Assembly: GCA_030651695.1 (NCBI GenBank)
Contig: JAUSCD010000012.1
Coordinates: 1 to 64,000, forward strand
Direction of reading: 5' to 3'
DNA length: 64,000 bases
Source of the DNA: Pseudohongiella sp.
GTDB lineage: Bacteria > Pseudomonadota > Gammaproteobacteria > Pseudomonadales > Pseudohongiellaceae
The position numbers were made by a program, and so were the translations under genes. This document shows positions 1,334-18,547 of the stretch, piece after piece. Each line of letters begins with the position of its first letter. Within the stretch, counting starts at the first letter, position 1. The notes beneath the pieces are model-generated. The model was not told the DNA's origin and ran no database searches. It was given only the letters and a program-made list of their open reading frames with translations.

Positions 1334-1552
1334 CACTTTTCTCCACGGTTTCTAACGGCTTTTGCATCCACATCCATACTTCAGTTGCCTGATTGCTTGC
1401 CGACTTGACATGAGAGTAGCAGGCAACCAGAAATGCGTCGATACGCATAGCTACGGGGATTGGCACTGGTGGGAACGGTGTCACCAAACAGCACTTCACA
1501 AATCATTCACAACAAGCGATTATCAAGCTCCAAAGAACAGGGGATAACAAGA

Positions 1553-3271
1553 ATGACTCAGGACCTGTCACGATTTCCCGAACTGCATGCGCTGGAAACC
1601 CGCATTCTGACCCGCCTCAGCGAGGATGTGCCGCTGCGGGTTATTCTCGACGACATCACCCTCACAGTAGACCGTTTGATGGCGGAGGTGCGCTCCTCCA
1701 TCCTGTTGGTAGAGAATGGGGTAATACGCCACGGCTCCGCCCCTAATCTTCCACCTGCATTTAATGCGGCCATTGATGGCGAAGCCATCGGGGAAAACGC
1801 CGGTTCTTGCGGGAGCGCTGCGTTTCTCGGCAAACAAGTAATTGTTGTCGATACGTTGACCGATCCGCTATGGCATGACTATCGCGAGCTGGCTATAGAA
1901 CATGGGCTTCTTGCATGCTGGTCAACTCCGGTGCTCTCCATAGAAGATCAGGTACTGGCTACCTTCGCGATCTACCATAAGACGGCGCGGACACCGAATC
2001 AGGCGGAAATCAACTTCATTAACCGGATAAGTCACTTTGTACGGGTTGCCGTGGAGCGCGCGCAGCACAAGCAGGCGCTGCAAAAAAGTGAAGAAAAGCT
2101 GGCTCAAATGCAGCGCCTTGAGGCGCTTGGACAGCTGACCGGCGGAATCGCACACGATTTTAACAATCTGCTGACCGTGATTATTGGCAATAGCGAACTA
2201 CTGGCAAGCACGCTGCCACACAACCCACGGCAACAAGACATGTTGAAGCTGATTCTGACTGCAGCGGGCCAGGGTGCAGATCTCACCAGCCGGCTGCTGA
2301 CCTTCGCCAGCAAACAAACCCTGAGCCCGGCTGTAATCGATTTATTCAGCATTGTGAAAAACCTCCAGCCGCTCGTCGAGCGCACGCTGGGGTCCGATAT
2401 CAGGATTCAGTTCCGCTTTGGCGGCGACTTGTGGCCGGTTTTGATTGACCCGACGCAGTTTGAGAGCGCTGTGCTCAATTTATGCCTCAATGCACGTGAT
2501 GCCATGACGCACGGCGGCAGCCTGACTGTTGAAGCCGCCAATGTCAGCTTTGATTACAAAGAGGAGATGCTGGCAGCCGACATTGCTGCCGGCGACTACG
2601 TCATGCTGGCAATCTCCGATACTGGCAGCGGCATGGATGAGGCGACTATTTCACGCGCGTTTGAGCCGTTTTTCAGCAGCAAACCTGCCGGCACAAACAG
2701 CGGCATGGGCTTGAGCATGGTGTACGGTTTTATCCGCCAATCACACGGACACGTAAAGTTGTACTCAGAGCCTGGCCAGGGCACTACTGTGCGTATGTAT
2801 CTGCCGCGGGCAATGGACAAAACCGCTGACGAAAACCCCACTACCAGATATAGACCCGGCACAGAACCAGCTTTGGTCACTGGTGATGCCGAACTTATTC
2901 TATTGGTTGAAGACAATGAACTGGTGCGTCTGCACGTAGAGAAGTTGCTGCACTCGCTGGGCTACCAGACCATCAGCGCAGCCAACGGTATGGAAGCCCT
3001 TGGAATTCTTGCGGGCAATCCATCCGTCGATTTGCTGTTCACCGATGTCGTCATGCCAGGGGGCATGAATGGGCGAGAGTTGTCTGAGCAGGCACTCGCC
3101 ATCAAACCTGATCTGCCCGTGCTGTTCACTTCAGGTTACGCTCAGGATGCCATCATGCACCAGGGGCGGCTTGCCCGGGGAGACCATCTGCTGCCAAAAC
3201 CCTATCGCCGCATGGATCTGGCCAACAAACTGCGGGAAGTGCTGGACAACGAATCACCGGACTCAAAATGA
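1553..3271 (+). CDS. Soluble GAF hybrid histidine kinase
   Basis: A 572-residue cytoplasmic sensor kinase with no membrane segment. Order: GAF domain (about 15-165), HisKA with phospho-acceptor His201 in GGIAHDFNN, HATPase_c with N-box NLCLNARDAM and G-box SDTGSGM, and a C-terminal receiver with Asp498 in LLFTDVVMPGG. The ATG at 1553 is preferred over an upstream in-frame ATG (1460) because AGGGG lies about 9 nt before it and the GAF domain starts soon after. A weak promoter, TTCACA (1495-1500) and GATTAT (1518-1523) with a 17-bp spacer, lies upstream. It overlaps the next kinase by ATGA, so the two are probably co-translated. The ligand of the GAF domain is unknown. No response regulator with an output domain is adjacent. 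Confidence 0.9.
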   Translation: MTQDLSRFPELHALETRILTRLSEDVPLRVILDDITLTVDRLMAEVRSSILLVENGVIRHGSAPNLPPAFNAAIDGEAIGENAGSCGSAAFLGKQVIVVDTLTDPLWHDYRELAIEHGLLACWSTPVLSIEDQVLATFAIYHKTARTPNQAEINFINRISHFVRVAVERAQHKQALQKSEEKLAQMQRLEALGQLTGGIAHDFNNLLTVIIGNSELLASTLPHNPRQQDMLKLILTAAGQGADLTSRLLTFASKQTLSPAVIDLFSIVKNLQPLVERTLGSDIRIQFRFGGDLWPVLIDPTQFESAVLNLCLNARDAMTHGGSLTVEAANVSFDYKEEMLAADIAAGDYVMLAISDTGSGMDEATISRAFEPFFSSKPAGTNSGMGLSMVYGFIRQSHGHVKLYSEPGQGTTVRMYLPRAMDKTADENPTTRYRPGTEPALVTGDAELILLVEDNELVRLHVEKLLHSLGYQTISAANGMEALGILAGNPSVDLLFTDVVMPGGMNGRELSEQALAIKPDLPVLFTSGYAQDAIMHQGRLARGDHLLPKPYRRMDLANKLREVLDNESPDSK

Positions 3272-5577
3272 GCGATAAAAACAAAAATAGATCATCGGCA
3301 GACGACGCCTTGCACTCCGCCTATCTGCATCTGATGGTAGCGGGCCGTGCCGCCAAAATGGGTGGCTGGTATCTGGATATCGTTGACCGCAAAGTCCACT
3401 GGTCTGCGGAAACAGCGGCCATCCATGGCCTGCCGGAGAGCTTCAGCCCGGAGCTGAAAGACGCGATCAACTATTATGCCCCTGAGTATCGTGAGCAAAT
3501 TGCTGCTGCAGTTGAGCGCTGCGTGCAGGAAGGCGTCAGCTTTGATGAGACTCTGGAACTGCTGCACGCAGATGGACATCGAGTCTGGGTAAGAGCGATT
3601 GGTGAAGCAGTCAAAGACGGCAACGGAACCGTCAATCGAATTCACGGTGCGTTTCAGGATATTTCCGAGCTCATGGCCGCACGTGAGGAATCGCGTGCTT
3701 TGTCCGAACGATTGATGCATACGCTGGAAAATATCAGCGACGCATTTCTGGTGATAGACAAAAATTGGTGTTTCGGATATCTGAACTCGCAGGCTGAGAA
3801 ATTATTGCAAAAAAAGCGCGAAGAGCTGCTGGGCAAACACATATGGACTGAATATCCTGCAGCCGTAGGCACCCGCTTCCAGGAGCAGTACGAACTGGCG
3901 ATCAATGAACAACTCACCGTCAGCTTTATAGAGTATTACCCGCCCCCGTTGGACCATTGGTTCGAGGTCAACGCATATCCCACACCAGACGGACTTGCTG
4001 TCTATTTCCGCGACGTTAATGAACGCTTCAGGCAGGAAGAGGCGTTGCGCGTGAGTGAAGAGCGTTTCCGCCTGATTGCGCTGGCAACCAATGACGTGAT
4101 CTGGGACTGGGATCTGGTCAAAGACACTGTGTGGTGGAACGACAGCCTACTGCCGGTTTTTGGCCATGACCCTGAGAATATTGAGGCCGGCCTGGAATCA
4201 TGGACCAATAGAGTTCATCCCTCGGATCTCAAGGCTGCCACTGACAGTGTCAATGCCGTCATGAAGAGCAAATCCACCAACAGCTGGCAGCACGAATATC
4301 GTTTTATGCATGCAAACGGTGAACCGCGTGTGGTGATCGACCGTGGTTACGTTATGCGAAATGCAAAGGGCAAACCGATACGCATGCTGGGCAGCATCAT
4401 GGATATGACTGACAGTCGCGAGATGAATGATCGCCTGCGCCAATCCCAGAAGATGGAAGCTGTTGGCCAACTTACCGGTGGTGTGGCGCATGACTTCAAC
4501 AACCTGTTGACGGTTATTCTTGGCAACGCGGAACTGTTAACTGAGCAGTTGACTGATCAACAACAACTACGAATGCTGGCCGAAATGACGGCGACAGCCG
4601 CCGAACGCGGGGCTGAGTTAACCAATCGCCTGCTGGCGTTTGCCCGACGTCAGCCGCTCGAGCCGAAACAGGTGAACCTGAATAAATTGATTCAGGGCAT
4701 GGATAATCTCCTGCGCCGCACCTTGCAGGAAAATATCGATATCGAGACTGTATATGCGGGCGGGTTGTGGCTCAGTGAAGTAGACCCGGGGCAACTGGAA
4801 GGCGCCTTGTTGAATCTGGCAATCAATGCGCGCGACGCCATGCCCGATGGAGGCAAGCTCACGATAGAAACAGCCAACACTCTGCTCGATGAGTCCTATG
4901 CCTGCCATCATGACGAAGTCAGACCGGGCCAGTATGTATTGATTTCGGTCTCCGATACCGGCGCCGGTATGCCAACCACAGTAGTCAGCCGGGCATTTGA
5001 ACCGTTTTTTACCACCAAACAGATGGGCAAAGGTAGTGGCCTGGGCCTGAGTATGGTTTATGGTTTTGCCAAACAATCCGGCGGGCACATCAAGATTTAC
5101 TCTGAAGTCAATGAAGGCACCACGGTAAAACTCTACTTGCCTCGGGCTGTGAACTCGGCTGATCCGCTTTATGAGGGGCACTTGGCACCCAAGACGGAAG
5201 GTGGCAGCGAGAAAATCCTGATAGTCGAAGATGACCCGCTGGTGCGCCAGCATGTCAGTGCCCAACTCAAAACACTCGGATACCAGGTAATCTCTTGCAG
5301 CAATGCGGAGGATGCACTCGATGTCATCATGCAGCTGAGCGATATTGATCTGTTATTTACTGACATCGTTATGCCTGGTTCCATGAACGGCAGGCAACTG
5401 GCGGAAGCAACACACAAGTTGCGACCAGCCATAAAAATTCTTTTCACCTCCGGATACACCGAGAATGCCATCGTGCATCACGGTCGGCTGGATCGCGGAG
5501 TACATTTGCTCAACAAACCGTATCGACGTCAGGAACTCGCTGCGAAAGTACGCAAAGTGCTGGATGAAACCGGCTGA
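3268..5577 (+). CDS. Multi-PAS hybrid histidine kinase
   Basis: A 769-residue cytoplasmic kinase. Three PAS regions precede the core (about 20-135, 145-250 and 265-390); the third carries the IWDWD and WWN signature of PAS_3 folds. HisKA follows with His408 in GGVAHDFNN, then HATPase_c (NLAINARDAM, SDTGAGM, GLGLSMVYG) and a receiver with Asp699 in LLFTDIVMPGS. No transmembrane helix is seen. It starts inside the stop codon of the preceding kinase (ATGA), which indicates translational coupling. Its kinase and receiver halves are clearly paralogous to the upstream gene and to the kinase at 33661. What the PAS domains sense, and the downstream target, are unknown. Confidence 0.92.
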   Translation: MSDKNKNRSSADDALHSAYLHLMVAGRAAKMGGWYLDIVDRKVHWSAETAAIHGLPESFSPELKDAINYYAPEYREQIAAAVERCVQEGVSFDETLELLHADGHRVWVRAIGEAVKDGNGTVNRIHGAFQDISELMAAREESRALSERLMHTLENISDAFLVIDKNWCFGYLNSQAEKLLQKKREELLGKHIWTEYPAAVGTRFQEQYELAINEQLTVSFIEYYPPPLDHWFEVNAYPTPDGLAVYFRDVNERFRQEEALRVSEERFRLIALATNDVIWDWDLVKDTVWWNDSLLPVFGHDPENIEAGLESWTNRVHPSDLKAATDSVNAVMKSKSTNSWQHEYRFMHANGEPRVVIDRGYVMRNAKGKPIRMLGSIMDMTDSREMNDRLRQSQKMEAVGQLTGGVAHDFNNLLTVILGNAELLTEQLTDQQQLRMLAEMTATAAERGAELTNRLLAFARRQPLEPKQVNLNKLIQGMDNLLRRTLQENIDIETVYAGGLWLSEVDPGQLEGALLNLAINARDAMPDGGKLTIETANTLLDESYACHHDEVRPGQYVLISVSDTGAGMPTTVVSRAFEPFFTTKQMGKGSGLGLSMVYGFAKQSGGHIKIYSEVNEGTTVKLYLPRAVNSADPLYEGHLAPKTEGGSEKILIVEDDPLVRQHVSAQLKTLGYQVISCSNAEDALDVIMQLSDIDLLFTDIVMPGSMNGRQLAEATHKLRPAIKILFTSGYTENAIVHHGRLDRGVHLLNKPYRRQELAAKVRKVLDETG

Positions 5578-5640: not shown

Positions 5641-7080
5641 ATGACACGCGTGCAAATACCCCTGGTGGTGGATCTGGATGGCACGTTGATTCATACGGAC
5701 ATGCTCCACGAATCTGCGCTAAAAGTATTTAGAGATCAACCATTTAAAACAATAGCCATACCTCTGTGGTTACTGCAGGGCAAGGCCGTGCTCAAAGATA
5801 AGCTGGCACAGCGTCTGGACTTTGATGCTGGCATACTCCCGTATAATCAGGAGCTGCTCTCGTGGCTGCATACCCAGAAAGCCAACGGCCGCCGCCTGAT
5901 ACTGTGTACAGCATCTGATCGAAAAATCGCAGAGGCTATCGCGGCACATCTGGATCTGTTTGACGACGTCATGGCCAGTGATGGTGAGACCAATCTGTCG
6001 GGCCCGCACAAGGCGCAGGCGTTAACACAACGCTTTGGTGTTAACGGTTTTGATTACGTTGGCAATTCCCACAAAGACCTGCCCGTATGGCAACAATCAC
6101 ACCAGGCGGTAGTGGTAAACGGCGCTGACGGCCTTGCCGACAAAGCCAGACAGTTTTGCAAAGTCGAGCAGGAGTTTCCAAGGCCGAAACCTGCCCTGCT
6201 AACCTGGATAAAATTGGTTCGCGCCCATCAATGGCTGAAAAATCTGCTGCTTTTTATCCCTGCGCTTGCCGCGCACGAAATTGGCAACGCAGCACTATGG
6301 CCGACGATGTTGATGGCATTTTTTGCTTTCAGCTTCTGCGCTTCCGCTGTTTACATCACCAACGATTTGTTTGATCTGGAGAGTGATCGCCTGCATCCGC
6401 GCAAACGCCACCGTGCTTTCGCCTCCGGCGTTGTGCCGGCCTGGAAAGGTGTGCTGTTGGTGCCTCCGCTGCTATTTGCAGGGATCACACTGGCATGGCA
6501 GGTTGGAATTCCCTTTTTGCAGTGGCTGCTTCTTTACCTGGTCCTGACCTGCGCGTACTCCTTCGGGCTCAAGCGCCTGATGCTGGTCGACTGTCTTACG
6601 CTTGCCATCCTCTACACCCTTCGCATTGTGGCCGGCGCCGCAGCAGCCGGCACTGAACTGACTTTCTGGCTGCTGGCGGAATCTGTTTTCCTGTTCCTGT
6701 CCCTTGCTTTTGTCAAACGATATGCTGAACTGCATGTCAGTGAGCAATCGGGCATCAGCAAAGCACACGGACGTGGCTATTACACCAGTGACGCTCCTCT
6801 GATCCAGACCCTAGGAGTGACATCCGGTTATATTGCTGTGCTGATTCTGGCGCTGTATTTCAACAGCGAAGCCGTGCTGGAACTTTACCGCGAGCCTGCT
6901 TTTGTATGGGCGGCTATCCCTATCATGTTGTTCTGGACCAGCTGGATGTGGATGCAGGCCAGTCGCGGCAATATGCACGATGACCCACTGATATTTGCAG
7001 TCAAGGACAGAGCCAGCCTGCTGGCGGGACTCGCCTTCGCGGTGGTTCTGGTTATCGGCACGGCAGGCTTGCCATGGTAA
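5641..7080 (+). CDS. HAD phosphatase-UbiA prenyltransferase fusion (DPPR synthase-like)
   Basis: A 479-residue two-part protein. The first 190 or so residues form a HAD-type hydrolase with motif I DLDGTLIHTD and a late GNSHKDLPVW segment. The rest is a polytopic UbiA-family prenyltransferase with the Asp-rich NDLFDLESD motif, followed by the RLHPRKRHR stretch seen in the DPPR-synthase branch of the family. Members of that branch transfer 5-phosphoribosyl diphosphate to polyprenyl phosphate; the HAD part could then remove the 5-phosphate. The next genes (DprE1- and DprE2-like) support this reading over quinone or heme synthesis. The stop overlaps the following start by 7 nt. The lipid length and exact sugar are inferred, not seen. 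Confidence 0.85.
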   Translation: MTRVQIPLVVDLDGTLIHTDMLHESALKVFRDQPFKTIAIPLWLLQGKAVLKDKLAQRLDFDAGILPYNQELLSWLHTQKANGRRLILCTASDRKIAEAIAAHLDLFDDVMASDGETNLSGPHKAQALTQRFGVNGFDYVGNSHKDLPVWQQSHQAVVVNGADGLADKARQFCKVEQEFPRPKPALLTWIKLVRAHQWLKNLLLFIPALAAHEIGNAALWPTMLMAFFAFSFCASAVYITNDLFDLESDRLHPRKRHRAFASGVVPAWKGVLLVPPLLFAGITLAWQVGIPFLQWLLLYLVLTCAYSFGLKRLMLVDCLTLAILYTLRIVAGAAAAGTELTFWLLAESVFLFLSLAFVKRYAELHVSEQSGISKAHGRGYYTSDAPLIQTLGVTSGYIAVLILALYFNSEAVLELYREPAFVWAAIPIMLFWTSWMWMQASRGNMHDDPLIFAVKDRASLLAGLAFAVVLVIGTAGLPW

Positions 7081-8417
7081 ATAATGATTTGGTGAAACTG
7101 ACATCCTGGGGAAATACCACCCACGATCCTCACAAACTCATCATGGTGAACGACCGCGAAAACACACAATTATTGGCAAATAATACACCTGGCATCTGTT
7201 TCGGAAACGGGCGCAGTTACGGGGATGTCTGTCTTAACCCCGGCGGGGTAGTCTGGCAAATGCGTGGGCTCAACCGGTTGATCGCTTTTGACAGCGTCAC
7301 AGGGCGACTGCGCTGCCAATCCGGTGTGTTGTTGCAGGATATCCAGCGCACGCTGGTCCCGCAGGGATGGATGTTACCGGTGACACCTGGCACTCAGTTA
7401 ATTACTGTAGGCGGAGCCATCGCCAATGATGTCCATGGCAAGAATCACCACCGGCTCGGATCTTTCGGTGATCATGTTATCGCGCTGGATCTGTTTCGCA
7501 CAGACGGATCGCTTCTGCACTGCTCGCACAACTCTGAGGCCCGGATGCTCCAAGCCACAATCGGGGGGCTGGGGCTGACCGGCATCATACTGGAAGCTGA
7601 ACTGCAGTTGCGCCGCATCAACAGTCCGTGGCTCACAACAGATACGGTTCCCTACCGATCGCTGGACGAATTTTTTGAGCTGGCCGACAGCTCGGAGCAG
7701 AATTGGGAGCATACCGTTTCCTGGATTGATTGCTTGTCTGGCAGAGCCGGCCATGACACCAGAGGAATATTTTTGCGCGCCAACCACAATAACGATGCAG
7801 CTGAACATAATCCGGATACCAGCCATACAGCGCCGACCGGAGCTCGCAGACTGTCCTTCCCATTCACGCCACCGCTCTCTCTGGTCAACCGTCTCAGCCT
7901 GCGGCCGTTCAACGAACTGTACTACCGCCTGCAAGCACGCAAACGCGGCAGCGGGACGGCGCACTATGAGTCATTCTTTTATCCGCTGGATACGCTGCGG
8001 CATTGGAACAGAATGTACGGGCCCCGCGGTTTTTACCAGTACCAGTGCGTTGTTCCGAAAGCCGACAGTCGTGAGGCGATAGCCCGGTTACTGAACACCA
8101 TTCAACAATCCGGCGAAGGCTCTTTTCTGGCAGTACTCAAGACGTTTGGAGACAAAACAGGCAAGGGCCTGCTCAGTTTTCCCATGCCGGGCGCAACACT
8201 GGCACTCGACTTTCCCAACAGAGGCGAAAGATCATCAAGATTATTTGAGCAACTTGACGCCATTGTCAGCGAGTACGCCGGCCGCATATACGCAGCCAAA
8301 GACGCACTGATGCCAAGAAGCTTATTCGAATCCGGTTACCCGCATCTGCCGGAGTTCATTCCAATGCGTGACCCCGGCATCAGCTCTGCGCTATCACGCA
8401 GGTTGATGGGTAGCTGA
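7074..8417 (+). CDS. DprE1-like FAD-dependent decaprenylphosphoryl-ribose oxidase
   Basis: A 447-residue flavoprotein of the VAO/FAD-linked oxidase family. GNGRSYGD near residue 45 and TVGGAIANDVHGKNHH near residue 110 are the FAD-binding hallmarks of DprE1, which oxidises the 2'-hydroxyl of polyprenyl-phospho-ribose. YHPLD-type (FYPLDTLRHWNRMYGP) and LSFPMPG segments also match the mycobacterial enzyme. At the place of mycobacterial Cys387 (in ICVDFP) this protein has Ala377 (LALDFP). The ATG start overlaps the stop of the UbiA gene, and the SDR partner follows after 14 nt. An alternative is a general sugar-lactone oxidase, but the neighbours argue strongly for DprE1. Confidence 0.87.
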   Translation: MVNNDLVKLTSWGNTTHDPHKLIMVNDRENTQLLANNTPGICFGNGRSYGDVCLNPGGVVWQMRGLNRLIAFDSVTGRLRCQSGVLLQDIQRTLVPQGWMLPVTPGTQLITVGGAIANDVHGKNHHRLGSFGDHVIALDLFRTDGSLLHCSHNSEARMLQATIGGLGLTGIILEAELQLRRINSPWLTTDTVPYRSLDEFFELADSSEQNWEHTVSWIDCLSGRAGHDTRGIFLRANHNNDAAEHNPDTSHTAPTGARRLSFPFTPPLSLVNRLSLRPFNELYYRLQARKRGSGTAHYESFFYPLDTLRHWNRMYGPRGFYQYQCVVPKADSREAIARLLNTIQQSGEGSFLAVLKTFGDKTGKGLLSFPMPGATLALDFPNRGERSSRLFEQLDAIVSEYAGRIYAAKDALMPRSLFESGYPHLPEFIPMRDPGISSALSRRLMGS

Positions 8418-8431
8418 TTTACAAACAGCGA

Positions 8432-9214
8432 ATGACACATGAGAACAACATGAATTCTGAATCTTTTGCAAACAGACACATTGTAATTATCGGCGCAACA
8501 TCAGGCATCGCTGAGCATTGTGCGCGGCGCTGGGCCCAGGAAGGCGCTGGCAGTATGACATTGGTCGCCCGCAACACGGATCGACTGTCGGAGATCCGTG
8601 ATGATCTGACAGTTCGAAGGCCCGGGCTGATGGTTCACTGCCTGAGCGGTGAGTTCCTTCTGGCCCAGGGCGTACAGCAGTTGGTTGACAACGTGCTGGC
8701 GATCGGGAACCCGGACATCGTGTTGATAGCACATGGCAGCTTGCCAGACCAAAGTCTCTGCCAGCAGAGTCTGACTCTTTGTGCCGAGCAAATGAACATC
8801 AATGCTCTGTCTCCTGTGCTATTTGCTGAAGCATTTGTCAGTCACATGGAAAAAGTGGGACATGGCACACTGGCGGTACTGGGCTCTGTTGCAGGCGACC
8901 GCGGGCGAAAATCCAACTATGTTTACGGGGCCGCCAAAGGTCTGGTTACACGCTATTTGCAGGGGCTCCAGCACAGACTTGCGGGCAGCAACGTCAGGGT
9001 GGTGCTGGTCAAACCCGGCCCGACTGATACCGCAATGACTGCCCATCTGAAACAGCAAGGCAGCAAACTGGCGAGCGTTGAGGAAGTTGCAGCTGCCATT
9101 ACTACCGGCATTGCCAGCGGCAAACCAGTGATTTATGCGCCGGCGAAATGGGCTTTGATCATGATGATCATTCGCCATTTGCCGCGCTTCATCTTCAATC
9201 GCATGGACATTTAA
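8432..9214 (+). CDS. DprE2-like short-chain dehydrogenase
   Basis: A 260-residue classical SDR with the N-terminal nucleotide-binding GATSGIAE motif, NAHG-type central strand (LIAHGSLPD), catalytic Ser in VLGSVAG and YVYGAAK as the YxxxK pair. In mycobacteria DprE2 reduces the 2'-keto intermediate made by DprE1, giving the arabino epimer. A hydrophobic C-terminal tail with basic residues could associate with the membrane, as DprE2 proteins do. The start could be the ATG at 8432 or at 8450; neither has a strong ribosome-binding site. The position directly after the DprE1-like gene is the main reason for the specific call. Confidence 0.85.
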   Translation: MTHENNMNSESFANRHIVIIGATSGIAEHCARRWAQEGAGSMTLVARNTDRLSEIRDDLTVRRPGLMVHCLSGEFLLAQGVQQLVDNVLAIGNPDIVLIAHGSLPDQSLCQQSLTLCAEQMNINALSPVLFAEAFVSHMEKVGHGTLAVLGSVAGDRGRKSNYVYGAAKGLVTRYLQGLQHRLAGSNVRVVLVKPGPTDTAMTAHLKQQGSKLASVEEVAAAITTGIASGKPVIYAPAKWALIMMIIRHLPRFIFNRMDI

Positions 9215-9216
9215 GT

Positions 9217-10986
9217 ATGACCGGGATCAGGGAACAGATCATCATCCGGTGCTGCCTGACGGCAGGCGCGATTGTGGCACTTTACTTCGTTCTGACGGTG
9301 ATAGCCGGCATCAGCCTGTCTTACTCGCCTGTGCCCTTCTGGGATATGTGGGGCGGCACGCTGAACTTCTATCTTGCCGTTCTGGATGGCAATACCAATG
9401 TCTGGTGGACTCAACACAATGAGCATCGCATCATTCTGTCGCGCCTGCTGTTCTGGCTGGATTTCCAACTGGCCGGAGGCTCCGGCGTGCTGTTGCTGGC
9501 CACTCACCCAATACTGGCAGGACTTGCTGCATACGTATTCTATTTGTTCTGCCGTCAGTTGATCATCATTGAACCTGACCGCGCACGCGTGCTGAGTTTA
9601 CTCTGCGCCACCTTCTTTACAGCATGGCTGTTTCAGTGGATGCAGGCAGAAAATTTCACATGGGCCTTCCAAAGTCAGTTTTTCCTTGCCCAGTTATTGC
9701 CTTTGCTGACGTGTTATCTGCTGGCCCGATCTGCGACCACATCGACACGCCCGACGCTTTGGTTTAGTGCCGCCTGCGTTGCGGGAGTGGCCTCTGCGGG
9801 GACCATGGCCAACGGCATCATCTGTCTTCCGCTCATGATGGTATACGCATTGGTGACAAGGCAATCGTGGCAACGCGTGCTGGTACTGGCCGTGCTGGCC
9901 GCAATCACACTGAGCCTCTATTTCAGAAATTACTGGGCGCCCCGGGGACACGGCTCTGTCACTCAGGCTTTGTTGGAACAGCCTCTGGATCTTGCCCAGT
10001 ATGTATTGTTGTACATCGGCACTCCGTTTTATTTTCTGCTAGGAGCCGGCATCTACACCACGGCTGTTGCCGTAGTCGCCATGGTGGCAACTGTGCTGAT
10101 GGCAATTGTCGTTGCCTGTTTTCTCGTTACAACCACTCGTGCGCTACTATCTGGCTCCCGAGATCCGCGAAAAATCTGGCAGCTTGCCCTGGTGTTCTAC
10201 ATTATTTACCTCGCAGGCACTGCGCTGGGCACCGGTGGCGGGCGTCTGGTTTTCGGCGTAAACCAGGCATTAGCCTATCGATATACCACACCCGCACTGA
10301 TGGCCTGGGCAGCACTTTTTGTACTATTGATTCCCGGTATCGTGCGTCACTGGCGCAGTACCCGCCTGGTTGTAGTACCTGCTGTAGTTGTTTTGTGTTA
10401 CTTGATGATCAGCCTGCAACTGCAGGCATTGAATAGCAGACAACAGCAGATTTTTGAACGCTCTCTGGCAGCTCTGGCATTGGAGCTTGATATCAGAGAC
10501 GCACCACGAATTCTGGCAGTCCATGAAATGTCCAGCGCCTTGATTCACATTGTTGATCTGGCGCGCCGGCGCGAACTGTCTGTATTCGGCAACTATCCAC
10601 TGCAAGGACTTCGCGAGCAGCTTGGGCGCTTTTACCAGGCTCCTGAGGAATTGCCTTCATGCGAGGGCTACCTGGACATCATCGCTGAGGTGCGGGGAGA
10701 AACCGAATACCACTTCATACAAGGCTGGCTGGTCAACACCACAACGCGGGCCCCTGCAACATTGATCAGAATTGTAGACAGCAACAATTTGACGCAAGGT
10801 TTTGCGCTGGGCGGACAGGTGCGCACCGATGTTGCCACCGCCATTGGCGCGTATGCTGAGACTGCCGGGTTCGGCGGTTATATGACGCTGCCTGACACAG
10901 ACAGCAGCATTCGCCTGATAGCAGACAACAACGCATGTGAATTAGGAAATCCGGCGTTGCCGGAGATAGCAGGGGAATTAAATTGA
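9217..10986 (+). CDS. Polytopic membrane protein, probable GT-C glycosyltransferase
   Basis: A 589-residue inner-membrane protein with about ten hydrophobic helices and a soluble, probably periplasmic, C-terminal part (about 430-589). The first loop carries PFWDMWG followed by WWTQHNEHR; an acidic residue in the first large outer loop is typical of GT-C enzymes that use polyprenyl-phosphate sugars. No precise family was recognised. In this operon it may transfer the arabinose-type sugar to a pilin, lipopolysaccharide or another envelope acceptor, as TfpW is reported to do for Pseudomonas pilin. The ATG at 9217, just after the SDR stop, is preferred over an ATG at 9148 inside the SDR gene. Its stop overlaps the next start. 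Confidence 0.72.
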   Translation: MTGIREQIIIRCCLTAGAIVALYFVLTVIAGISLSYSPVPFWDMWGGTLNFYLAVLDGNTNVWWTQHNEHRIILSRLLFWLDFQLAGGSGVLLLATHPILAGLAAYVFYLFCRQLIIIEPDRARVLSLLCATFFTAWLFQWMQAENFTWAFQSQFFLAQLLPLLTCYLLARSATTSTRPTLWFSAACVAGVASAGTMANGIICLPLMMVYALVTRQSWQRVLVLAVLAAITLSLYFRNYWAPRGHGSVTQALLEQPLDLAQYVLLYIGTPFYFLLGAGIYTTAVAVVAMVATVLMAIVVACFLVTTTRALLSGSRDPRKIWQLALVFYIIYLAGTALGTGGGRLVFGVNQALAYRYTTPALMAWAALFVLLIPGIVRHWRSTRLVVVPAVVVLCYLMISLQLQALNSRQQQIFERSLAALALELDIRDAPRILAVHEMSSALIHIVDLARRRELSVFGNYPLQGLREQLGRFYQAPEELPSCEGYLDIIAEVRGETEYHFIQGWLVNTTTRAPATLIRIVDSNNLTQGFALGGQVRTDVATAIGAYAETAGFGGYMTLPDTDSSIRLIADNNACELGNPALPEIAGELN

Positions 10987-11924
10987 ACAACAGCCGAATC
11001 GTTCTGCCTGGTGGCGCCGGTCTGGTCGGACAAAATCTGGTTGCACGGCTGCGGGCACAGGGATACAACAATATTGTTGTGCTGGATAAACACATGGATA
11101 ACCTTGAGGTACTGCGACGAGTACAGCCGGAGGTGACAGCAGAGTATGCAGACCTGACGGAACCCGGAGATTGGCAGCAGTATGTCCGCGAGGCAGACGT
11201 GGTTGTAATGTTGCAAGCCCAGATCGGCGGAGTGGACTATCAGGATTTTGAACGCAATAACGTCCATGCTACTCAGTTAATTCTGGACGCAATCAAGTCA
11301 GCGACAACAACCCCATACCTCGTACATATCAGCTCCTCCGTGGTTAATTCTGTTGCCGATGATTTTTATTCGCGCAGCAAGCGCCTGCAGGAAAAACTGG
11401 TTCTGGACAGTGGTATCGCATGTCCCATTTTACGTCCGACACTCATGTTCGGTTGGTTCGACCGCAAACACTTGGGCTGGTTATCCCGGTTTATGAAGAA
11501 AGTGCCGGTTTTTCCCATCCCTGGCCACGGCCGCTACATGCGACAACCGCTGTATGTGGGTGATTTTTGCGACATCATTATCAGTTGTATAAACCGCCGC
11601 CAGGGTCGAGGAATCTATAATATTTCCGGACACGAAAAAATTGATTACATCGATATGATCTGTGCGATCAAGCGCATCTCCGGTGCAAATACCTGGATTA
11701 TTCGTATTCCTTATCGATTGTTCTACCTGCTGCTTTGGTGTTGGGCACTTTTTGATCGCAGCCCACCATTCACCACTCAGCAGCTGGATGCACTGATAGC
11801 AAAAGACGAGTTTGAAGTCATCGATTGGCCGGCTCTGTTCGGGGTGCGCTGCACACCATTTGAGGAAGCACTTCAGGAGACATTTACCGATCCACATTAC
11901 AGCCATGTTGTGCTGAAATTTTGA
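10983..11924 (+). CDS. NAD-dependent epimerase/dehydratase
   Basis: A 313-residue extended SDR. The nucleotide-binding motif PGGAGLVGQNL is at residues 9-19, a Ser-rich SSSVVNS stretch supplies the catalytic Ser region, and FYSRSK provides the YxxxK pair. The start is TTG, overlapping the previous stop as TTGA, which implies coupled translation. Proteins of this type modify nucleotide- or lipid-linked sugars. Its place between the GT-C-like gene and the FAD oxidoreductase suggests a further sugar-modifying step in the same glycolipid pathway. The substrate is not known. Confidence 0.8.
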   Translation: MNNSRIVLPGGAGLVGQNLVARLRAQGYNNIVVLDKHMDNLEVLRRVQPEVTAEYADLTEPGDWQQYVREADVVVMLQAQIGGVDYQDFERNNVHATQLILDAIKSATTTPYLVHISSSVVNSVADDFYSRSKRLQEKLVLDSGIACPILRPTLMFGWFDRKHLGWLSRFMKKVPVFPIPGHGRYMRQPLYVGDFCDIIISCINRRQGRGIYNISGHEKIDYIDMICAIKRISGANTWIIRIPYRLFYLLLWCWALFDRSPPFTTQQLDALIAKDEFEVIDWPALFGVRCTPFEEALQETFTDPHYSHVVLKF

Positions 11925-11950
11925 CCATCACCTGACACGGAGTTTGTTCA

Positions 11951-13237
11951 GTGAGAATAGCAGTACTTGGTGCCGGCCCGATGGGTCTGGCCGCAGCATA
12001 TCAACTGGTCCGGGATGGCCATCAGGTTGTGCTGTTTGAAGCAGATGATCGTCTGGGCGGCATGACCGCCAGCTTTGACTTTAATGGCCTGCTCATTGAG
12101 CGTTACTACCATTTCCATTGCCTGTCCGACCACGGATTGCTTCAGATGCTGGATGAACTGGGTATCGCTGATCGGATGCGATGGAAAGAAACCCATATGG
12201 GCTTCTGGCACCGGAAGCAACTGCAGGACTGGGGTAACCCGGTGGCGTTGCTACGTTTCAAGGGCTTGGGGTTTGTCAGCAAGGTCCGCTACGGCCTGCA
12301 TGCTTTCTGCGCTACAAAGCGCAGTAGTTGGCACGATCTGGACAACGTAAGCGCTTCAGAATGGATAAAACGCTGGGTAGGCAAGAGCGCATGGGAGACC
12401 CTTTGGAAACCTCTGTTTGAATTCAAGTTCTATCACTATGCCGACAACCTGTCAGCAGCATGGATCTGGAGCCGGATTCACCGAGTGGGGGGTTCACGTT
12501 ACAACCTGATGCGGGAAAAACTCGGCTACCTCGAAGGTGGCTCAGAAACCTTACTGCAGGCCATGGCAAGCTCTATCAGGCAGGGCGGCGGAGAAATCCG
12601 GCTGTCGTGTCCGGTGCAACAAGTCCGGACGAATCAGGGGCGGGTAACCGGATTGCAAGTTAAAGACAGCCTCATATGCGAAACGTTCGACAAAGTTGTC
12701 AGCACCATTCCGCTGCCATTTGTGCCACAACTGATCCCTGATCTGCCGCCTGCGGCACTGGCAAGGTATCGTGCGCTGGATAATATTGCGGTCGTATGTG
12801 TAATCGTCAAACTGCGCTCGCCACTGACGGATAAGTTCTGGCTGAACATCAATGATCCTGATATGGACATACCCGGACTTGTGGAGTACAGCAATCTGCG
12901 TCCATTGGAGCATGCAGTTGTGTATGTCCCCTTTTATCTGCCAGCAGACCACCCCTCGTATGCCGACACAGATGAAGTATTTGAAGGCAAAGTGCGGCGT
13001 TATCTGAAGACTATCAAACCAGCACTTGTGGATGATGATTTCCTGGATCTGCGAGTCAGTCGCTACCGGTATGCCCAACCCATTTGTCCGCCTGGCTTTT
13101 CGTCGGCCTTGCCGCCTTACCAGACAGAAATTGACGGGCTGTGGGTGGCCGATACATCCTACTATTACCCAAATGACCGGGGCATTTCTGAAAGCCTGGA
13201 CTTTGGCCGCAAACTGGCAAAGGAGGCAGTGGCATGA
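11951..13237 (+). CDS. FAD-dependent oxidoreductase (NAD(P)-binding, UGM/amine-oxidase-like)
   Basis: A 428-residue flavoprotein with [13 protein letters not shown] at the N-terminus (Rossmann dinucleotide fold) and the GG doublet in [11 protein letters not shown] that contacts FAD. A C-terminal [17 protein letters not shown] segment closes the FAD site. It belongs to the broad amine-oxidase/UDP-galactopyranose-mutase-like superfamily, but the UGM active-site residues could not be assigned with confidence. The start is GTG with ACGGAG about 8 nt upstream. It ends in ATGA overlap with the GtrA gene. Linked genes suggest work on a lipid-linked sugar or its carrier. The reaction is unknown. Confidence 0.75.
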
Positions 13238-13650
13238 CCAGAAACTTCCTGACCAACCAATACGCGTCACGGCAGTTTCTGGCCTTTTTGGTGACCGGCG
13301 GCATCGCCGCATTAACAAATTTTGGTAGCCGCCTGGCTTACAACCAATGGATGAGTTATTCCAGTGCAATCATCCTTGCCTACATTACCGGCATGATAGT
13401 GGCGTACCTGTTGGCCCGGATGTTTGTATTTACCAGCAGCAGGCAGCCGTTATCACACTCTGTGCTGTTTTTCCTGTTGATCAACTTGCTGGCGGTGACC
13501 CAGACGTGGCTGGTCAGCATGCTACTGGCGTACCAGCTGTTACCCGCACTGGGCATCCAGACGCTGGTCCCGGAAATTGCGCATGCAGTGGGCATTGTGG
13601 TGCCGGTATTCACCAGCTATCTGGGCCACAAGTACTGGTCTTTCCGTTAA
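13234..13650 (+). CDS. GtrA family membrane protein
   Basis: A 138-residue protein with four hydrophobic helices, the [13 protein letters not shown] start typical of GtrA, and a closing [10 protein letters not shown] segment that is also typical. GtrA proteins help move or present polyprenyl-phosphate sugars at the inner membrane. In Mycobacterium tuberculosis a GtrA-like gene (Rv3789) sits beside dprE1 and dprE2, so the same association here strengthens the pathway call. It overlaps the preceding gene by 4 nt and is the last gene of the run. Confidence 0.88.
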
Positions 13651-13742
13651 ACCTTCGGACAATCAGGCTGACAAATCCCGTATGAGCGCATACACTTGGG
13701 CGCTATTTGCATCCTCATGACAATTCACGGATACCGGTTTTA

Positions 13743-14741
13743 ATGCTTTTACCGTTTTTAGCTATTGTTGTCGGGCTGGTAGTGCTGGTCTGGAGCGCCG
13801 ATCGGTTTGTTGATGGCGCCGCATCGGCGGCCAAACACTTCAATATCCCTGCCTTGCTGATCGGCGTGGTTATTATTGGTTTCGGCACTTCTGCGCCTGA
13901 GCTGGTGGTTTCAGCGCTGGCTTCTCTGGAAGGCAACCCCGGCATCGCGCTGGGCAATGCGTATGGCTCCAATATCACCAATATTGCGTTGATACTGGGT
14001 ATTACAGCGCTGGTCAGCCCTATTGTTGTCGACTCTCAAGCCCGACGCAGCACATTGCCGTTACTGACATTGGCCAGCATTTTTGCTGCTCTGCTGCTGT
14101 TTGATGACTACTTGAGTCGCCTTGATGCCATTGGCCTGTTGATCGTATTTACCGCCCTGATGGGATGGACCATTTATCAGGGAATGCGGGATCAACCCGA
14201 CACCTGCTCCACATCGCATGACATCCCGATCCCAAAGGAACTCCAGCAGGGCCTGGCCCACCCGATGCCCTTGAAGTTTGCTTTGATCTGGCTGGTCATC
14301 GGTCTGATATTGCTGATTGCCAGCTCCCGGATTCTGGTCTGGGGCTCTGTGGAAGTCGCAGAGAGCCTGGGTGTGAGCGATCTCATCATTGGTCTTACCA
14401 TCATCGCCATTGGCACTTCCCTCCCCGAACTGGCATCCTCCGTGGTTGCCGCCCGCAAAGGCGAGCACGATATGGTGGTGGGTAATATTCTTGGCTCTAA
14501 CGTGTTTAATACCCTGGCAGTCGTCGGTATCGCCGGTGTAATTCACCCGCTGGAAATCAGCCGTGAAGTGCTGACCCGTGACGTCGCGACCATGCTGGTG
14601 CTGACGCTGTCGCTGTTTGTGCTCGGTCACGCACGCAACAAAGGCAATGGACTTATCACCCGCAGCAAAGGACTGCTGTTGGTAAGCGCTTATGTGATGT
14701 ACACCTTATGGCTGGCAAGCAGCGTATTTTTTGCCGCATAA
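13743..14741 (+). CDS. Ca2+/Na+ antiporter, CaCA family
   Basis: A membrane exchanger of about 332 residues with the two alpha repeats of the family: GFGTSAPELVVS with GNAYGSNITN in the first half, and AIGTSLPELASS with GNILGSNVFN in the second. These carry the ion-binding Glu and Asn residues. About ten helices are visible. It most resembles YrbG-type transporters and may export Ca2+. An in-frame TTG at 13707 would add 12 polar residues. The ATG at 13743 is preferred because the first helix begins at once, although the ribosome-binding site is weak. Confidence 0.9.
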   Translation: MLLPFLAIVVGLVVLVWSADRFVDGAASAAKHFNIPALLIGVVIIGFGTSAPELVVSALASLEGNPGIALGNAYGSNITNIALILGITALVSPIVVDSQARRSTLPLLTLASIFAALLLFDDYLSRLDAIGLLIVFTALMGWTIYQGMRDQPDTCSTSHDIPIPKELQQGLAHPMPLKFALIWLVIGLILLIASSRILVWGSVEVAESLGVSDLIIGLTIIAIGTSLPELASSVVAARKGEHDMVVGNILGSNVFNTLAVVGIAGVIHPLEISREVLTRDVATMLVLTLSLFVLGHARNKGNGLITRSKGLLLVSAYVMYTLWLASSVFFAA

Positions 14742-14774
14742 ACCAGCCTGACGTTTAAGGAAATAATAATAATT

Positions 14775-16778
14775 ATGAAACTGCAGCTGCTGTGCTTGCT
14801 GTCGGCTATTTTAAAATCAAAGCTGGCTGGCTTTTTTAACCCGATGGCGCTTTTGCAGCTGACGGTTCCATTTATCATTTTCACCTTGTCGGCACAGGTC
14901 AGCGCCCAGACCCCGTTCACTCGTGATGTGACCGGGGATCTGTTGCAACAGGTGATGCCTCAGGCTACCGGTTTCAGTGAAAAATCGGGCGAACCACCGG
15001 TTTTTACAGCCTATGGTGTGCTGCCGGACTCTGGTGAAACCGGCATCATCGGATACGTGTTCCAGACTTCCGATATGCCGCCGCTTGAAGTCGGTTTCAG
15101 CGCCCCTATTGAGGTGCTGGTGGCTTTGGACACACAAGCCACGATCACAGCGATCAAAATACTGGACTACAACGAATCATTCCGCTCCAGCCGCGGCGAC
15201 TTCATGTCTGCAAGGGGTTTTCAGGAACAGTTCCGACGCAAACCTCTGACCGACGAATTCCGGGTCGGGCGCGACATTGACGGTGTCTCGCGCGCCACCA
15301 TTACCAGTTGGGCAACAACCCGCGGCATCTACAACGCTGCACGACGGGTGGCACAGGTCTATCTCCCTGACAGTGGCATCGCAGCGGGCCAGGACTCAAG
15401 CGCAAATCTGCGCGCCCATCTGGAGCCTTTGACCTGGGATGAGCTGAAAGCACAAGGCATGGTAAAAGAGCTGGCCGTTGCCCTGCCCGACAGCACCGTT
15501 TTGAATCTGTCCTTTGCGTTTCTGGGCAACAACGAAACGCTGGGTGAATTGTTGGTTGGCGCCGAAGACTATTCCCGCGCCGAACGCGATGCCAGTAACC
15601 GCTTTGATGCCGGCGCGCTGGTGTTGACGGGTATCGGCGGCAATGCCTCCGATCCCTTCCGGCAGGAGCGACTGTCGCTGCAACAAAACGGTGTCGATTA
15701 TGAAATGCCGCGCCGGCGTTTTGTCTACGCAGGCAGCGCCATGGACGGCAAAATTGCTCGCCAGGCCCAGTATGCCGGTGCCATGGTGCTGCCGGCAGCG
15801 ATTGATCTGAGCCAGCCTTTTACTATTTTTTATGATCCGGTCAATGGACAGACACCGTCCTCTCTCGAGTTTCAAGTTACAGGCCTGATGCTGGATGTTG
15901 CACTTGGCAATGAAATTCTGGCGCCCGGCGCGGAACGGGAAAACGCCGCCAGCTCCAGCGATGTCAACTGGACACGCGTGCTTGCGCTGCTGGTGATTTT
16001 TGCGCTGGTGATGGCGACTTTCATCACCAAAAATGCGCGTCTGCGCTGGCTGACTTTAAGCGTGACGCTTGTCTACCTTGGATTTTTCAGTGGTGGCTTC
16101 CTTTCAGTGTCACATATCACCAACACCATCAATCTTGGGCCATCGATGATACTCAGCGATATACCACTGTTGATGATTGTGGTGTTTACGCTGGTGACGA
16201 CACTGATCTGGGGGCGCGTATTCTGTTCGACGTTGTGCCCGTTTGGTGCCGTGCAGGACTTCCTGTCGAAGCTGGTGCCCAAACGCTTCCAGAAAACTGT
16301 GCCGATGGCGATTCACAACAAAGCGATCTATATCAAGTACGCCATTCTTGCGTTGATTGTTGTGATGGCGTTCGTTCAGGGAGGCGTCAGCATCTTCCAG
16401 TACTTTGAGCCGTTCGGAACGTTGTTTTTCTACAGCACATCCATTGTGTTATGGAGCATACTGATTCTGATTCTGCTCGCATCGGCAGTCGTGAAGCGTT
16501 TTTATTGCCGTTATGCCTGCCCGCTTGGAGCAGCACTTGGCGTGCTGTCGCTGATAAGCCTGTCACGTATCAAACGTGTGCAGCAATGCACTGCCTGCAC
16601 TGTGTGTGAACACGCCTGCCCCACTGGTGCCATCGAACGGCACAAGGTGGACTTCAAGGAATGCGTGCGCTGCGATATTTGTGAAAGCAAACTTATCCAG
16701 AAGGCAGGGGTTTGCAGGCATACGGTGGACTCACTGATAGCTCGCGGAGTGAAATTGATTCCGTTGAAAACCATCTGA
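14775..16778 (+). CDS. NosR-like FMN-binding, 4Fe-4S polytopic membrane protein
   Basis: A 667-residue membrane flavoprotein. Order: an N-terminal signal-like helix ending near VSAQ, a periplasmic FMN-binding domain (about 90-190; the SRATITS segment is the likely covalent-FMN threonine site), a second periplasmic part, then about five helices. CSTLCPFGAVQD and CRYACPLGAALG are the paired CxxxCP motifs of the NosR/NapH type. A C-terminal ferredoxin-like region holds CTACTVCEHACPTGAI and CVRCDICES. NosR feeds electrons to nitrous oxide reductase, but no nos gene is present here, so the partner is open. AAGGAA lies 12 nt before the ATG, a rather long spacing. Confidence 0.85.
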   Translation: MKLQLLCLLSAILKSKLAGFFNPMALLQLTVPFIIFTLSAQVSAQTPFTRDVTGDLLQQVMPQATGFSEKSGEPPVFTAYGVLPDSGETGIIGYVFQTSDMPPLEVGFSAPIEVLVALDTQATITAIKILDYNESFRSSRGDFMSARGFQEQFRRKPLTDEFRVGRDIDGVSRATITSWATTRGIYNAARRVAQVYLPDSGIAAGQDSSANLRAHLEPLTWDELKAQGMVKELAVALPDSTVLNLSFAFLGNNETLGELLVGAEDYSRAERDASNRFDAGALVLTGIGGNASDPFRQERLSLQQNGVDYEMPRRRFVYAGSAMDGKIARQAQYAGAMVLPAAIDLSQPFTIFYDPVNGQTPSSLEFQVTGLMLDVALGNEILAPGAERENAASSSDVNWTRVLALLVIFALVMATFITKNARLRWLTLSVTLVYLGFFSGGFLSVSHITNTINLGPSMILSDIPLLMIVVFTLVTTLIWGRVFCSTLCPFGAVQDFLSKLVPKRFQKTVPMAIHNKAIYIKYAILALIVVMAFVQGGVSIFQYFEPFGTLFFYSTSIVLWSILILILLASAVVKRFYCRYACPLGAALGVLSLISLSRIKRVQQCTACTVCEHACPTGAIERHKVDFKECVRCDICESKLIQKAGVCRHTVDSLIARGVKLIPLKTI

Positions 16779-17013: not shown

Positions 17014-17499
17014 TTAACTGCCCCTTTTATTGTGATGCGCGTCCCGGCTTCCTATCTCAACCTTGCCACTGATCGATGCTCCCGGAGCGGCCTGCAGAGA
17101 CTTGCACACGATAGTCCCTGCTATAACCGACACTGAACCGGCAAAAGTCTCGTCGCACACGAGATCGCCGTCAAATTTTCCATCGATTACAAATTTCTTA
17201 CACTGCAACTTCCCCGTCATAGTGCCGGATTCAGCTAAAGTAAAATGGGGTGTACTAAGCTCGCCTTCAAGCTTGCCTTTTGCATGCACAGGCCCCGGAG
17301 AGGTGAGTATGCCCCGGAATATCGCCCCGGCGCTTAACACAGACGGCTCAGTATTAGCAGGGCGCGTAATCGTGCTCGGGCTTTTGGTATATTTACCCGC
17401 GTTTTTCTCAACCATAGCTAGAACAACACTGGGCATCTCGAAACTTTCTTTCACTTCTGCCGACGCAGACACTACTTCTGTTTTTTTGTTACCGAACAT
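17014..17499 (-). CDS. Bactofilin (second copy of the operon)
   Basis: A 162-residue bactofilin, a polymer-forming cytoskeletal protein with a beta-helical core. After a disordered N-terminal part (about 1-65), short repeats with Gly at regular spacing (GKLEGEL, GKLQC, GKFDGDL, GSVSVIAG, GKVEIG) build the core. The start MFGNKK at 17499 is typical of bactofilins and is preferred to an in-frame ATG at 17532. It overlaps the end of the LytM peptidase gene by 11 nt. Bactofilins scaffold envelope enzymes, and pairing with an M23 peptidase is a known arrangement in several bacteria. Confidence 0.88.
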   Translation of the reverse strand: MFGNKKTEVVSASAEVKESFEMPSVVLAMVEKNAGKYTKSPSTITRPANTEPSVLSAGAIFRGILTSPGPVHAKGKLEGELSTPHFTLAESGTMTGKLQCKKFVIDGKFDGDLVCDETFAGSVSVIAGTIVCKSLQAAPGASISGKVEIGSRDAHHNKRGS

Positions 17500-18547
17500 G
17501 ATCTTTGATTCCAATAAGTCTGAGGGGATCAATCCGTTTGCCGTTCAGATGCACTTCATAATGCAGATGACTCGCTGTCGATCTGCCTGTATTGCCCATT
17601 ATGCCAAGGACATCCCCTTGCGATACTGTATCGCCCACATTCAGCACTATCGACTCCAGATGAGCATAAAGCGTCAGAATATCATTTGAATGGTCAAGCA
17701 CAACTTTGTTGCCGTACGAACCGTCCCAACCGGCGAATACCACAACTCCGGGGGCAGTAGCGAGGACGTCTGAGTTCGTATAAGAAACGAAGTCTGCTCC
17801 TTGATGCGCCTCAATTCGACCCGTTATCGGATGACGCCTGACCCCGAATCGCGAAGTCAGACGGGCGCTATTAAGAGGACGCGCTACAGGTAAGATTTCC
17901 AAAAATGCATTTACTGCTGTTCGCTCATACAGAAGATCAGTTATGCGATCATTTAAGTAGTACGACGCCAGATCCGAGATGCCACCCAACTCGTCACCCC
18001 CTCCCCCAACCGGAACTGCCTGGTCAAGCCGCTCATCAGGTCTGTATTCAACTCCTGACCGCTGTAGTGAATCGAGGACATCCTTATTGTTTGATGCAAG
18101 CAAATCTCGGGTGGCTTCCACATAAAAACTGAAAGCTTCATCTTGCCAGACTATAATCCTCTTAAGAGCATCCAACCGGCCCGCAACATCAGGACTGAGC
18201 AACTCAGTTTGAAGGTGCGGAAACCCCGGGAGCTCTTCTGACAAATCGCCAAGCGACCCTGCTATTTTAGAGATATATTGTTCTTGGGCAATTACATCTG
18301 CTCTATATGATCTAATTTCCATGGCGGCCCAAAAAATAATCGAAGCAAAGGCAACCGAAAGCGAGCAAAAAATCACTTTGTAGCATTTGCTCTTAGCTCT
18401 TTGTTTAGCCCTGAAAGTATCTACCTGATTCCTGGACATAGAAAGATAGTTGGCACCTTCAGAATTGGTTACTATAACCGTAGCATCGCCAACATCCGGC
18501 AACTGGTCTCTCAACTCATCAATCCATGCCTCAATGTTCTTGCTCAT
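17489..18547 (-). CDS. Membrane-anchored M23 (LytM) family peptidase
   Basis: A 352-residue inner-membrane protein with a cytoplasmic N-terminus, one helix at about 59-77 (IFCSLSVAFASIIFWAAM), a helical periplasmic region and a C-terminal LytM domain (about 235-345). RLTSRFGVRRHP, AHQGADF and HLHYE carry the zinc ligands of active M23 endopeptidases, so the enzyme is probably catalytic and cuts peptidoglycan cross-links. It sits between two bactofilin genes, with ATGA overlap to the first and an 11-nt overlap to the second, so the three are translationally coupled. The likely role is local cell-wall remodelling directed by the bactofilin scaffold. Confidence 0.92.
   Translation of the reverse strand: MSKNIEAWIDELRDQLPDVGDATVIVTNSEGANYLSMSRNQVDTFRAKQRAKSKCYKVIFCSLSVAFASIIFWAAMEIRSYRADVIAQEQYISKIAGSLGDLSEELPGFPHLQTELLSPDVAGRLDALKRIIVWQDEAFSFYVEATRDLLASNNKDVLDSLQRSGVEYRPDERLDQAVPVGGGGDELGGISDLASYYLNDRITDLLYERTAVNAFLEILPVARPLNSARLTSRFGVRRHPITGRIEAHQGADFVSYTNSDVLATAPGVVVFAGWDGSYGNKVVLDHSNDILTLYAHLESIVLNVGDTVSQGDVLGIMGNTGRSTASHLHYEVHLNGKRIDPLRLIGIKDHVR

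Follow-up and report, generated by a model that had tools for sequence, protein, structure and literature searches.

A conserved seven-gene operon of Pseudohongiella in which a probable polyprenyl-phosphate pentose core is extended by an epimerase-like enzyme and an FAD oxidoreductase

Gene content of the operon and its conservation in the genus

The stretch of DNA analysed here, called the window below, comprises 64,000 nucleotides (nt) of Pseudohongiella sp. (assembly GCA_030651695.1, contig JAUSCD010000012.1), and we followed up an operon of seven genes, A to G, that lies on its forward strand at 5641-13650. The core of this operon, which consists of A, B, C, a membrane protein in the transferase slot (D) and a GtrA protein (G), is of a known kind; its resemblance to a mycobacterial pathway is no surprise, and what calls for an explanation is the conserved extension of this core by the two genes E and F. 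All seven open reading frames (ORFs) were confirmed on the same strand, with overlaps of 7 nt between A and B and of 4 nt both between D and E and between F and G. An earlier sequence-only reading had listed seven same-strand, mostly overlapping genes of these families, and the ORF and family checks confirmed this list.

Directly downstream, at 13707-16778, the window carries a Na/Ca antiporter gene and a gene for a NosR/NapH-like FMN-binding membrane protein. The order A to G followed by the antiporter and the NosR-like gene was kept in 11 of 14 same-genus genomes, and given this number the arrangement is not a product of chance. In two of the three genomes that do not show the full order, the locus is cut by contig ends. 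Gene F was present in 13 of 15 genomes of the genus, the window's own included. The genome G004, where no F was found at 1e-40, has A, B and C directly followed by the tail of the GtrA gene and the Na/Ca antiporter (locus L059, 10468-14478), with D, E, F and most of G missing there; in G011 (locus L060), where F was not found either, the contig ends in C. Both the loss of D to G in G004 and the lack of F in G011 may be natural, or they may be assembly artefacts of draft genomes. Promoter and terminator patterns between 5400 and 14900 were no commoner than in shuffled sequences.

Core enzymes and the transferase slot

Gene A (5641-7080, 479 amino acids (aa)) encodes a fusion of a HAD phosphatase with a UbiA polyprenyl-phosphate phosphoribosyltransferase. 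It matched UbiA with 72.5 bits, together with a HAD domain, and reached 663 bits against NCBIfam PRK08238 (cut-off 351), while its UbiA part scored 113 bits against the structure of Rv3806c (PDB 8j8j). The motifs DxDGT, NDxxDxxxD and KRYAELH are found at positions 11, 241 and 359, respectively. From its N/D-rich UbiA motif and its HAD domain, A is predicted to be a polyprenyl phosphoribose synthase. The HAD nucleophile motif, NDxxDxxxD and the R/E loop are the motifs that have been probed in ORF15 (PMC11127046), and all of them are present in A.

Gene B (7074-8417, 447 aa) encodes a DprE1-like polyprenyl-phosphoryl-pentose 2-oxidase, which aligned with DprE1 of Mycobacterium tuberculosis over 419 positions with 261 bits and 37% identity. 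It keeps the residues aligned with DprE1 Y60, H132, K134, Q334, Q336, K367 and K418 and differs at C387 (Ala), Y314 (Phe), S228 (Val) and N385 (Thr); not every binding-site residue is conserved. The DprE1 family model scored 361 bits, under its equivalog cut-off of 500, and the next best family only 48 bits. In a tree of 120 rows, B grouped with M. tuberculosis DprE1 apart from the lactone oxidases with support of 100, the tree being a FastTree reconstruction with local support values, only two outgroup rows (the lactone oxidases) and a long M. tuberculosis branch. Gene C (8432-9214, 260 aa) encodes a DprE2-like reductase of the short-chain dehydrogenase/reductase (SDR) type, with YxxxK at position 165. 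Its best PDB match was the DprE2 chain of 21gq (E 9e-28), and the DprE2 model scored 156 bits, under the cut-off of 250; the generic SDR model PRK07102 scored higher, at 251 bits, which is also under its own cut-off of 267. Since both proteins fall under the NCBIfam equivalog cut-offs and the generic SDR model beats DprE2 for C, we named them DprE1-like and DprE2-like.

The last core gene, G (13234-13650, 138 aa), encodes a GtrA family membrane protein (PF04138, 52 bits) and is a candidate flippase of a lipid-linked sugar; its homologue adjoins F in most related modules. The core families and the catalytic residues support the polyprenyl-phosphate pentose pathway of the Rv3806c/DprE1/DprE2 type that had been read from the sequence, and for B the expected placement in the DprE clade was found.

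The ORF of gene D opens at 9148, and its likely start lies at 9217, two bases after C, giving a protein of 589 aa (9217-10986). The first 23 codons from 9148 lie mostly inside C, and the alignments of many relatives begin no earlier than about residue 28, although those of some begin at residue 1; 9217 is therefore probably the true start. Hydropathy indicated eight transmembrane (TM) segments, with PFWDMW and HNEHR following the first of them, and an alignment of 15 rows, the window's protein among them, showed D43, W45, H70 and R71 (numbered from 9217) to be invariant. Searches with D found nothing in Pfam, in NCBIfam (up to E 0.1) or in the PDB (up to E 1), and among the 15 rows of the family one had a weak match to DUF4131. 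By its eight-segment topology and one conserved loop, D is a plausible candidate for a GT-C glycosyltransferase; the sequence-only reading had called it GT-C-like.

D varies most of all the genes in the operon: its median identity to the window at 12 same-genus loci is 47%, whereas the other six genes reach 62-77% (11 loci for G). Among 75 loci, the gap between C and E was shorter than 300 nt in 24 and held a D homologue in 18 and another multi-TM protein in 30, with three unresolved. D would accordingly be a swappable, acceptor-specific part of the system.

Family identity of E and F

Gene E (10983-11924, 313 aa) encodes an extended SDR enzyme of the epimerase/dehydratase-like kind. It matched the Epimerase family with 70 bits, matched SDRs of the 3-beta-hydroxysteroid dehydrogenase (3-beta-HSD) type as well, and carries GxxGxxG at position 10 and YxxxK at 129. 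The 13 rows of its family share the near-invariant stretch LRPTLMFGWFD(R/P)KHLGWL. No homologue of E was found in the phage collection at 1e-20.

Gene F (11951-13237, 428 aa) encodes an oxidoreductase of the phytoene desaturase/amine oxidase/HpnE superfamily that depends on flavin adenine dinucleotide (FAD). It reached 544 bits against PRK07233 (cut-off 252) and 127 bits against Amino_oxidase, and its family shows many invariant W, Y, R and H residues. Its profile matched that of HpnE over 404 columns; the score against the HpnE model TIGR03467 was 74 bits, below the cut-off of 283, and F is therefore homologous to HpnE but not a member of that family. The best solved relatives were phytoene desaturase, which scored highest, and amine oxidases. 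For either E or F, no assigned function was found in the open-licence literature searched (titles and starts of abstracts).

We also considered F as a ring mutase similar to UDP-galactopyranose mutase (UGM) and rejected this candidate: there was no GLF match, and hhalign gave a probability of 73.5% over only 68 N-terminal columns, against the 404 columns shared with HpnE. HpnE itself compared with UGM in a similar way (86%, 65 columns), and among the best 60 of 122 PDB matches of the F profile, UGM appeared only over positions 1-48. The likeness between F and UGM is confined to the nucleotide-binding start.

Linkage of E and F to the core across genomes

Loci were collected with E as the query, and the best 80 of 442 were used. 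F starts less than 200 nt after E in 78 of these 80 loci, one of the other two ending at a contig end, and A, B and C are all present in 62 of the 63 loci with at least 7 kb upstream. E and F are not stray neighbours; they travel with the core as a unit, and their description in the sequence-only reading as additions to the core was borne out.

The distribution within the class can be compared with that of the core. DprE1-like genes occur in 31 of the 56 genomes of the relatives search and in 69 of 369 class genomes, both counts including the window's own genome. F occurs in 16 of the 369, a number that counts the own genome and three distant matches. All 12 class genomes that have a close F outside the own genome also have B, compared with 68 of 368 overall (Fisher p 7e-10, a value that ignores kinship), and the three genomes with a distant F all lack B. 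At the 12 close-F loci, E lies beside F in 10 and about 1.5 kb away in one, and is not in the stretch in the remaining one (L089); B lies in the same stretch in nine and elsewhere in the genome in three. In three of these 12 loci (L083, L085 and L087), the synthase aligns only from about residue 188, and its HAD part seems to be absent or separate. Nine genomes were chosen for a B that was missing or an odd layout at the locus, and eight of them have B in the genome, one having only a 274-residue match; the ninth, Massilia brevitalea, has none.

On the B tree, the presence of E and F requires at least 10 changes of label, five of which are forced by strong branches, so the link between E/F and the core has been made or broken repeatedly. 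Of 20 genomes from other genera of the family, 10 carry B, and the nine of these 10 whose loci were retrieved all show core genes with no detectable E or F (one locus being cut by a contig end). E was found in four of 150 genomes of the Cupriavidus family, the centre included, and the trait is therefore sporadic there. In 67 loci with long matches to all five proteins, E showed 65-77% and F 60-72% identity. B fell into two levels in the same loci, with medians of 46% and 58% (23 loci below 50% and 44 above), and A and C followed B; the identities of E and F barely differed between the low-B and high-B loci, an evenness partly built in, as the sample was picked by E.

Two single loci may be added. 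In Pseudomonas sp. Irchel s3h14 the module is duplicated in tandem on a single contig (L133 and L167). The class genome G390 has a core cluster (L259, 7227-13119) that includes B, C, a 674-aa ORF and a UbiA protein lacking the HAD domain; on the B tree, the B of this cluster falls within lineages that carry E and F. A separate small membrane protein in this cluster may, as we guess, be the phosphatase, and a small protein there is presumably GtrA-like.

Plasmids carry the system to different extents. The synthase without a listed B or C was seen on plasmids of Vibrio, Rhodovulum and a sphingomonad, the synthase with GtrA, B and C on plasmids of Rhizobium laguerreae and Ruegeria, and the full A-B-C-E-F-G order on plasmids of Burkholderia stagnalis, Rhizobium tumorigenes, Rhodobacteraceae SC52 and Agrobacterium. 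These cases rest on nine annotated regions and one unannotated record out of 83 plasmid matches of A, and the gene tables of PLSDB are incomplete, so that a gene missing from a table is no proof of its absence. They suggest three nested tiers, namely the synthase, the addition of DprE1/DprE2 and the addition of E/F, and a pathway extended step by step is the simplest reading of them.

Proposed pathway and alternative explanations

On balance, the operon probably forms a polyprenyl-phosphate pentose in the cytoplasm, which would be flipped and transferred to a glycan or protein of the periplasmic envelope, with E and F converting lipid-linked arabinose to another pentose. B would oxidise C2 and C would reduce it, giving lipid-linked D-arabinofuranose as is known for the mycobacterial enzymes. 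E and F would add a third tier after B and C, as their gene association suggests, whereupon G would flip the product and D would transfer the flipped pentose to an envelope acceptor. Their dependence on B makes the arabinose product, or its keto form, the probable substrate of E and F. An FAD enzyme together with an SDR repeats the DprE1/DprE2 layout, and for this reason we favour a second redox pair that acts on the sugar.

Relative to D-arabinose, L-xylose is inverted at C4 and D-lyxose at C3. We know of no described bacterial route to L-xylose, and the phrase 'biosynthesis of l-xylose' did not occur in the 14 open-licence papers searched for it. Among several candidate products L-xylose leads, although as a weak guess. 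A tentative and rather doubtful proposal is that the six-gene module is an undescribed lipid-linked L-xylose route, in which B and C would turn D-ribose into D-arabinose and E and F would invert C4 and change the ring, feeding the incomplete L-xylose side chains of rhamnose-rich O-antigens; a mirror-series pentose would then arise from phosphoribosyl pyrophosphate (PRPP) without a nucleotide sugar. In Ralstonia solanacearum, an incomplete terminal beta-L-xylose side chain is reported on a rhamnose-rich O-antigen (PMC10450222), and the title of a reference in PMC5786101 speaks of a partially L-xylosylated L-rhamnan for one O-antigen of Xanthomonas campestris. The O-antigens described for xanthomonads are rhamnans whose side chains consist of a single sugar and are irregular in some cases; X. 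translucens has xylose (PMC8042644).

Several points weigh against these proposals. For X. citri strain Xcc99-1330, a review gives the O-antigen as a polymer of rhamnose (PMC8042644), and for Xylella the sugar reported is D-xylose (PMC5786101); neither favours an L-xylose product, and both may count against it. The restriction of the F-UGM likeness to the nucleotide-binding start weakens the ring expansion that a pyranose L-xylose would need. B and C miss their equivalog cut-offs (361 of 500 and 156 of 250 bits), with the generic SDR model outscoring DprE2 for C. Massilia brevitalea (L163) has E, F and GtrA but no B in its genome at 1e-40, and in the class genome G087 a close F lacks E as its neighbour. 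In addition, the 80 E loci, as the best of 442, are biased to close relatives.

An unlikely but still serious alternative is that the product is plain lipid-linked D-arabinofuranose and that E and F modify the polyprenyl chain, for example by saturating it, to give a dedicated carrier lipid. F matches HpnE over most of its length and has phytoene desaturase as its top-scoring solved relative, and E also matches SDRs of the 3-beta-HSD type. Members of the phytoene desaturase/HpnE superfamily act on isoprenoids, with amine oxidases also among the listed solved relatives of F. However, the dependence of E and F on DprE1 would be needless for a pair that modifies the carrier, and the invariant W, Y, R and H residues of F would suit a polar pocket better than a tunnel for a lipid.

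It seems quite improbable that E instead epimerises C3, as ORF13 of Citrobacter youngae O2 does, with inversion at C2 and C3 then yielding D-lyxofuranose and F assisting or unrelated. In that strain ORF13, itself an SDR, is all that determines whether the side chain is ribose or xylose (PMC11127046). E has motifs of the same class (a likeness by motif class, not by alignment), and the C3 epimer of D-arabinose is D-lyxose; yet lyxofuranose is in no solved carbohydrate structure according to the same source, and the module is widespread. Finally, the idea that a mycobacterial-type D-arabinose pathway decorates pilin or an envelope polymer, and that E and F lie next to it without being part of it, fits the core homology and the core-only clusters in the same family and class but is very unlikely, as the linkage of E and F recurs far beyond chance.

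If E and F do extend the pathway to a third sugar, Gram-negative bacteria would possess a three-tier system (ribose, arabinose and a third pentose) that is built on a single lipid and has a transferase that can be swapped, and this would account for some of the variety of their surface sugars. The origin of L-xylose or another rare pentose could then be tested in a single in vitro assay, and two recurrent enzymes that so far bear only general names would gain a function.

Elsewhere in the window, none of the 10 ORFs scanned (sensor kinases, a helicase, a cytochrome oxidase, a metal ATPase, a cyclic di-GMP enzyme, a permease and similar) gave a clue to the acceptor. Sensor kinases with GAF or PAS, HisKA, HATPase and receiver domains lie at 1460-5577 and 33661-38114 (1460-3271 and 33661-35967 were scanned). 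At 17014-18957, two small proteins resembling bactofilins flank a protein that resembles an M23-type peptidase.

Comparison with known systems

The pilin arabinosylation system of Pseudomonas aeruginosa presumably has no E or F. Its UbiA-type synthase is proposed to feed a lipid-linked arabinose donor for pilin, and this synthase lacks the HAD domain and works with a separate phosphatase (PMC11127046), a layout of the type seen in L259.

In the metB-etfA lipopolysaccharide (LPS) loci of Xanthomonas, published in 2007, ORF16, 15, 14, 12, 11 and 9 agree in size and annotation, not by alignment, with A, B, C, E, F and G (PMC2238763). That paper lists the six genes for the O-antigen loci of both X. 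citri 306 and X. oryzae BXO8 and reports the block from BLS256 as well; Stenotrophomonas R551-3 shares three ORFs, namely the SDR, the oxidoreductase and the integral membrane protein (PMC2238763). The Xanthomonas block sits in an O-antigen locus with wzm/wzt, plus a methyltransferase in BXO8, whereas the operon in the window stands alone. No pathway is assigned to the block in the LPS-locus account of PMC2238763.

With the mycobacterial decaprenyl-phospho-arabinose pathway (Rv3806c, Rv3807c, DprE1, DprE2 and Rv3789), the operon would share phosphoribosyl transfer, C2 epimerisation by an FAD enzyme and an SDR, and a small membrane protein as flippase candidate. It differs in having HAD in place of the unrelated phosphatase Rv3807c, in the added E and F, and in its carrier, which would presumably be undecaprenyl. 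The mycobacterial-style route in a Gram-negative setting that the sequence-only reading had pointed out is not news; with DprE1-like genes as frequent in the class as given above (69 of 369 genomes), it proved ordinary, and it is largely described in PMC11127046.

The three-component pentofuranose systems of Citrobacter youngae O1 and O2 (PMC11127046) are also among the closest known systems. The sections of that paper on these systems do not describe an E/F pair, and FAD does not begin any word of its main text; the paper does mention Xanthomonas systems in which there is more than one candidate epimerase or GT-C. The prototype uses a MATE flippase and a GT136 transferase, whereas the operon in the window has GtrA and a D without a family match. 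Both have a HAD-UbiA fusion, which in the described systems makes polyprenyl-phosphate ribose, and those systems include optional epimerases (DprE1/DprE2 homologues in the arabinose systems), a flippase and a GT-C transferase. By its gene families, the core of the operon thus resembles a three-component pentofuranose system in its arabinose form (PMC11127046).

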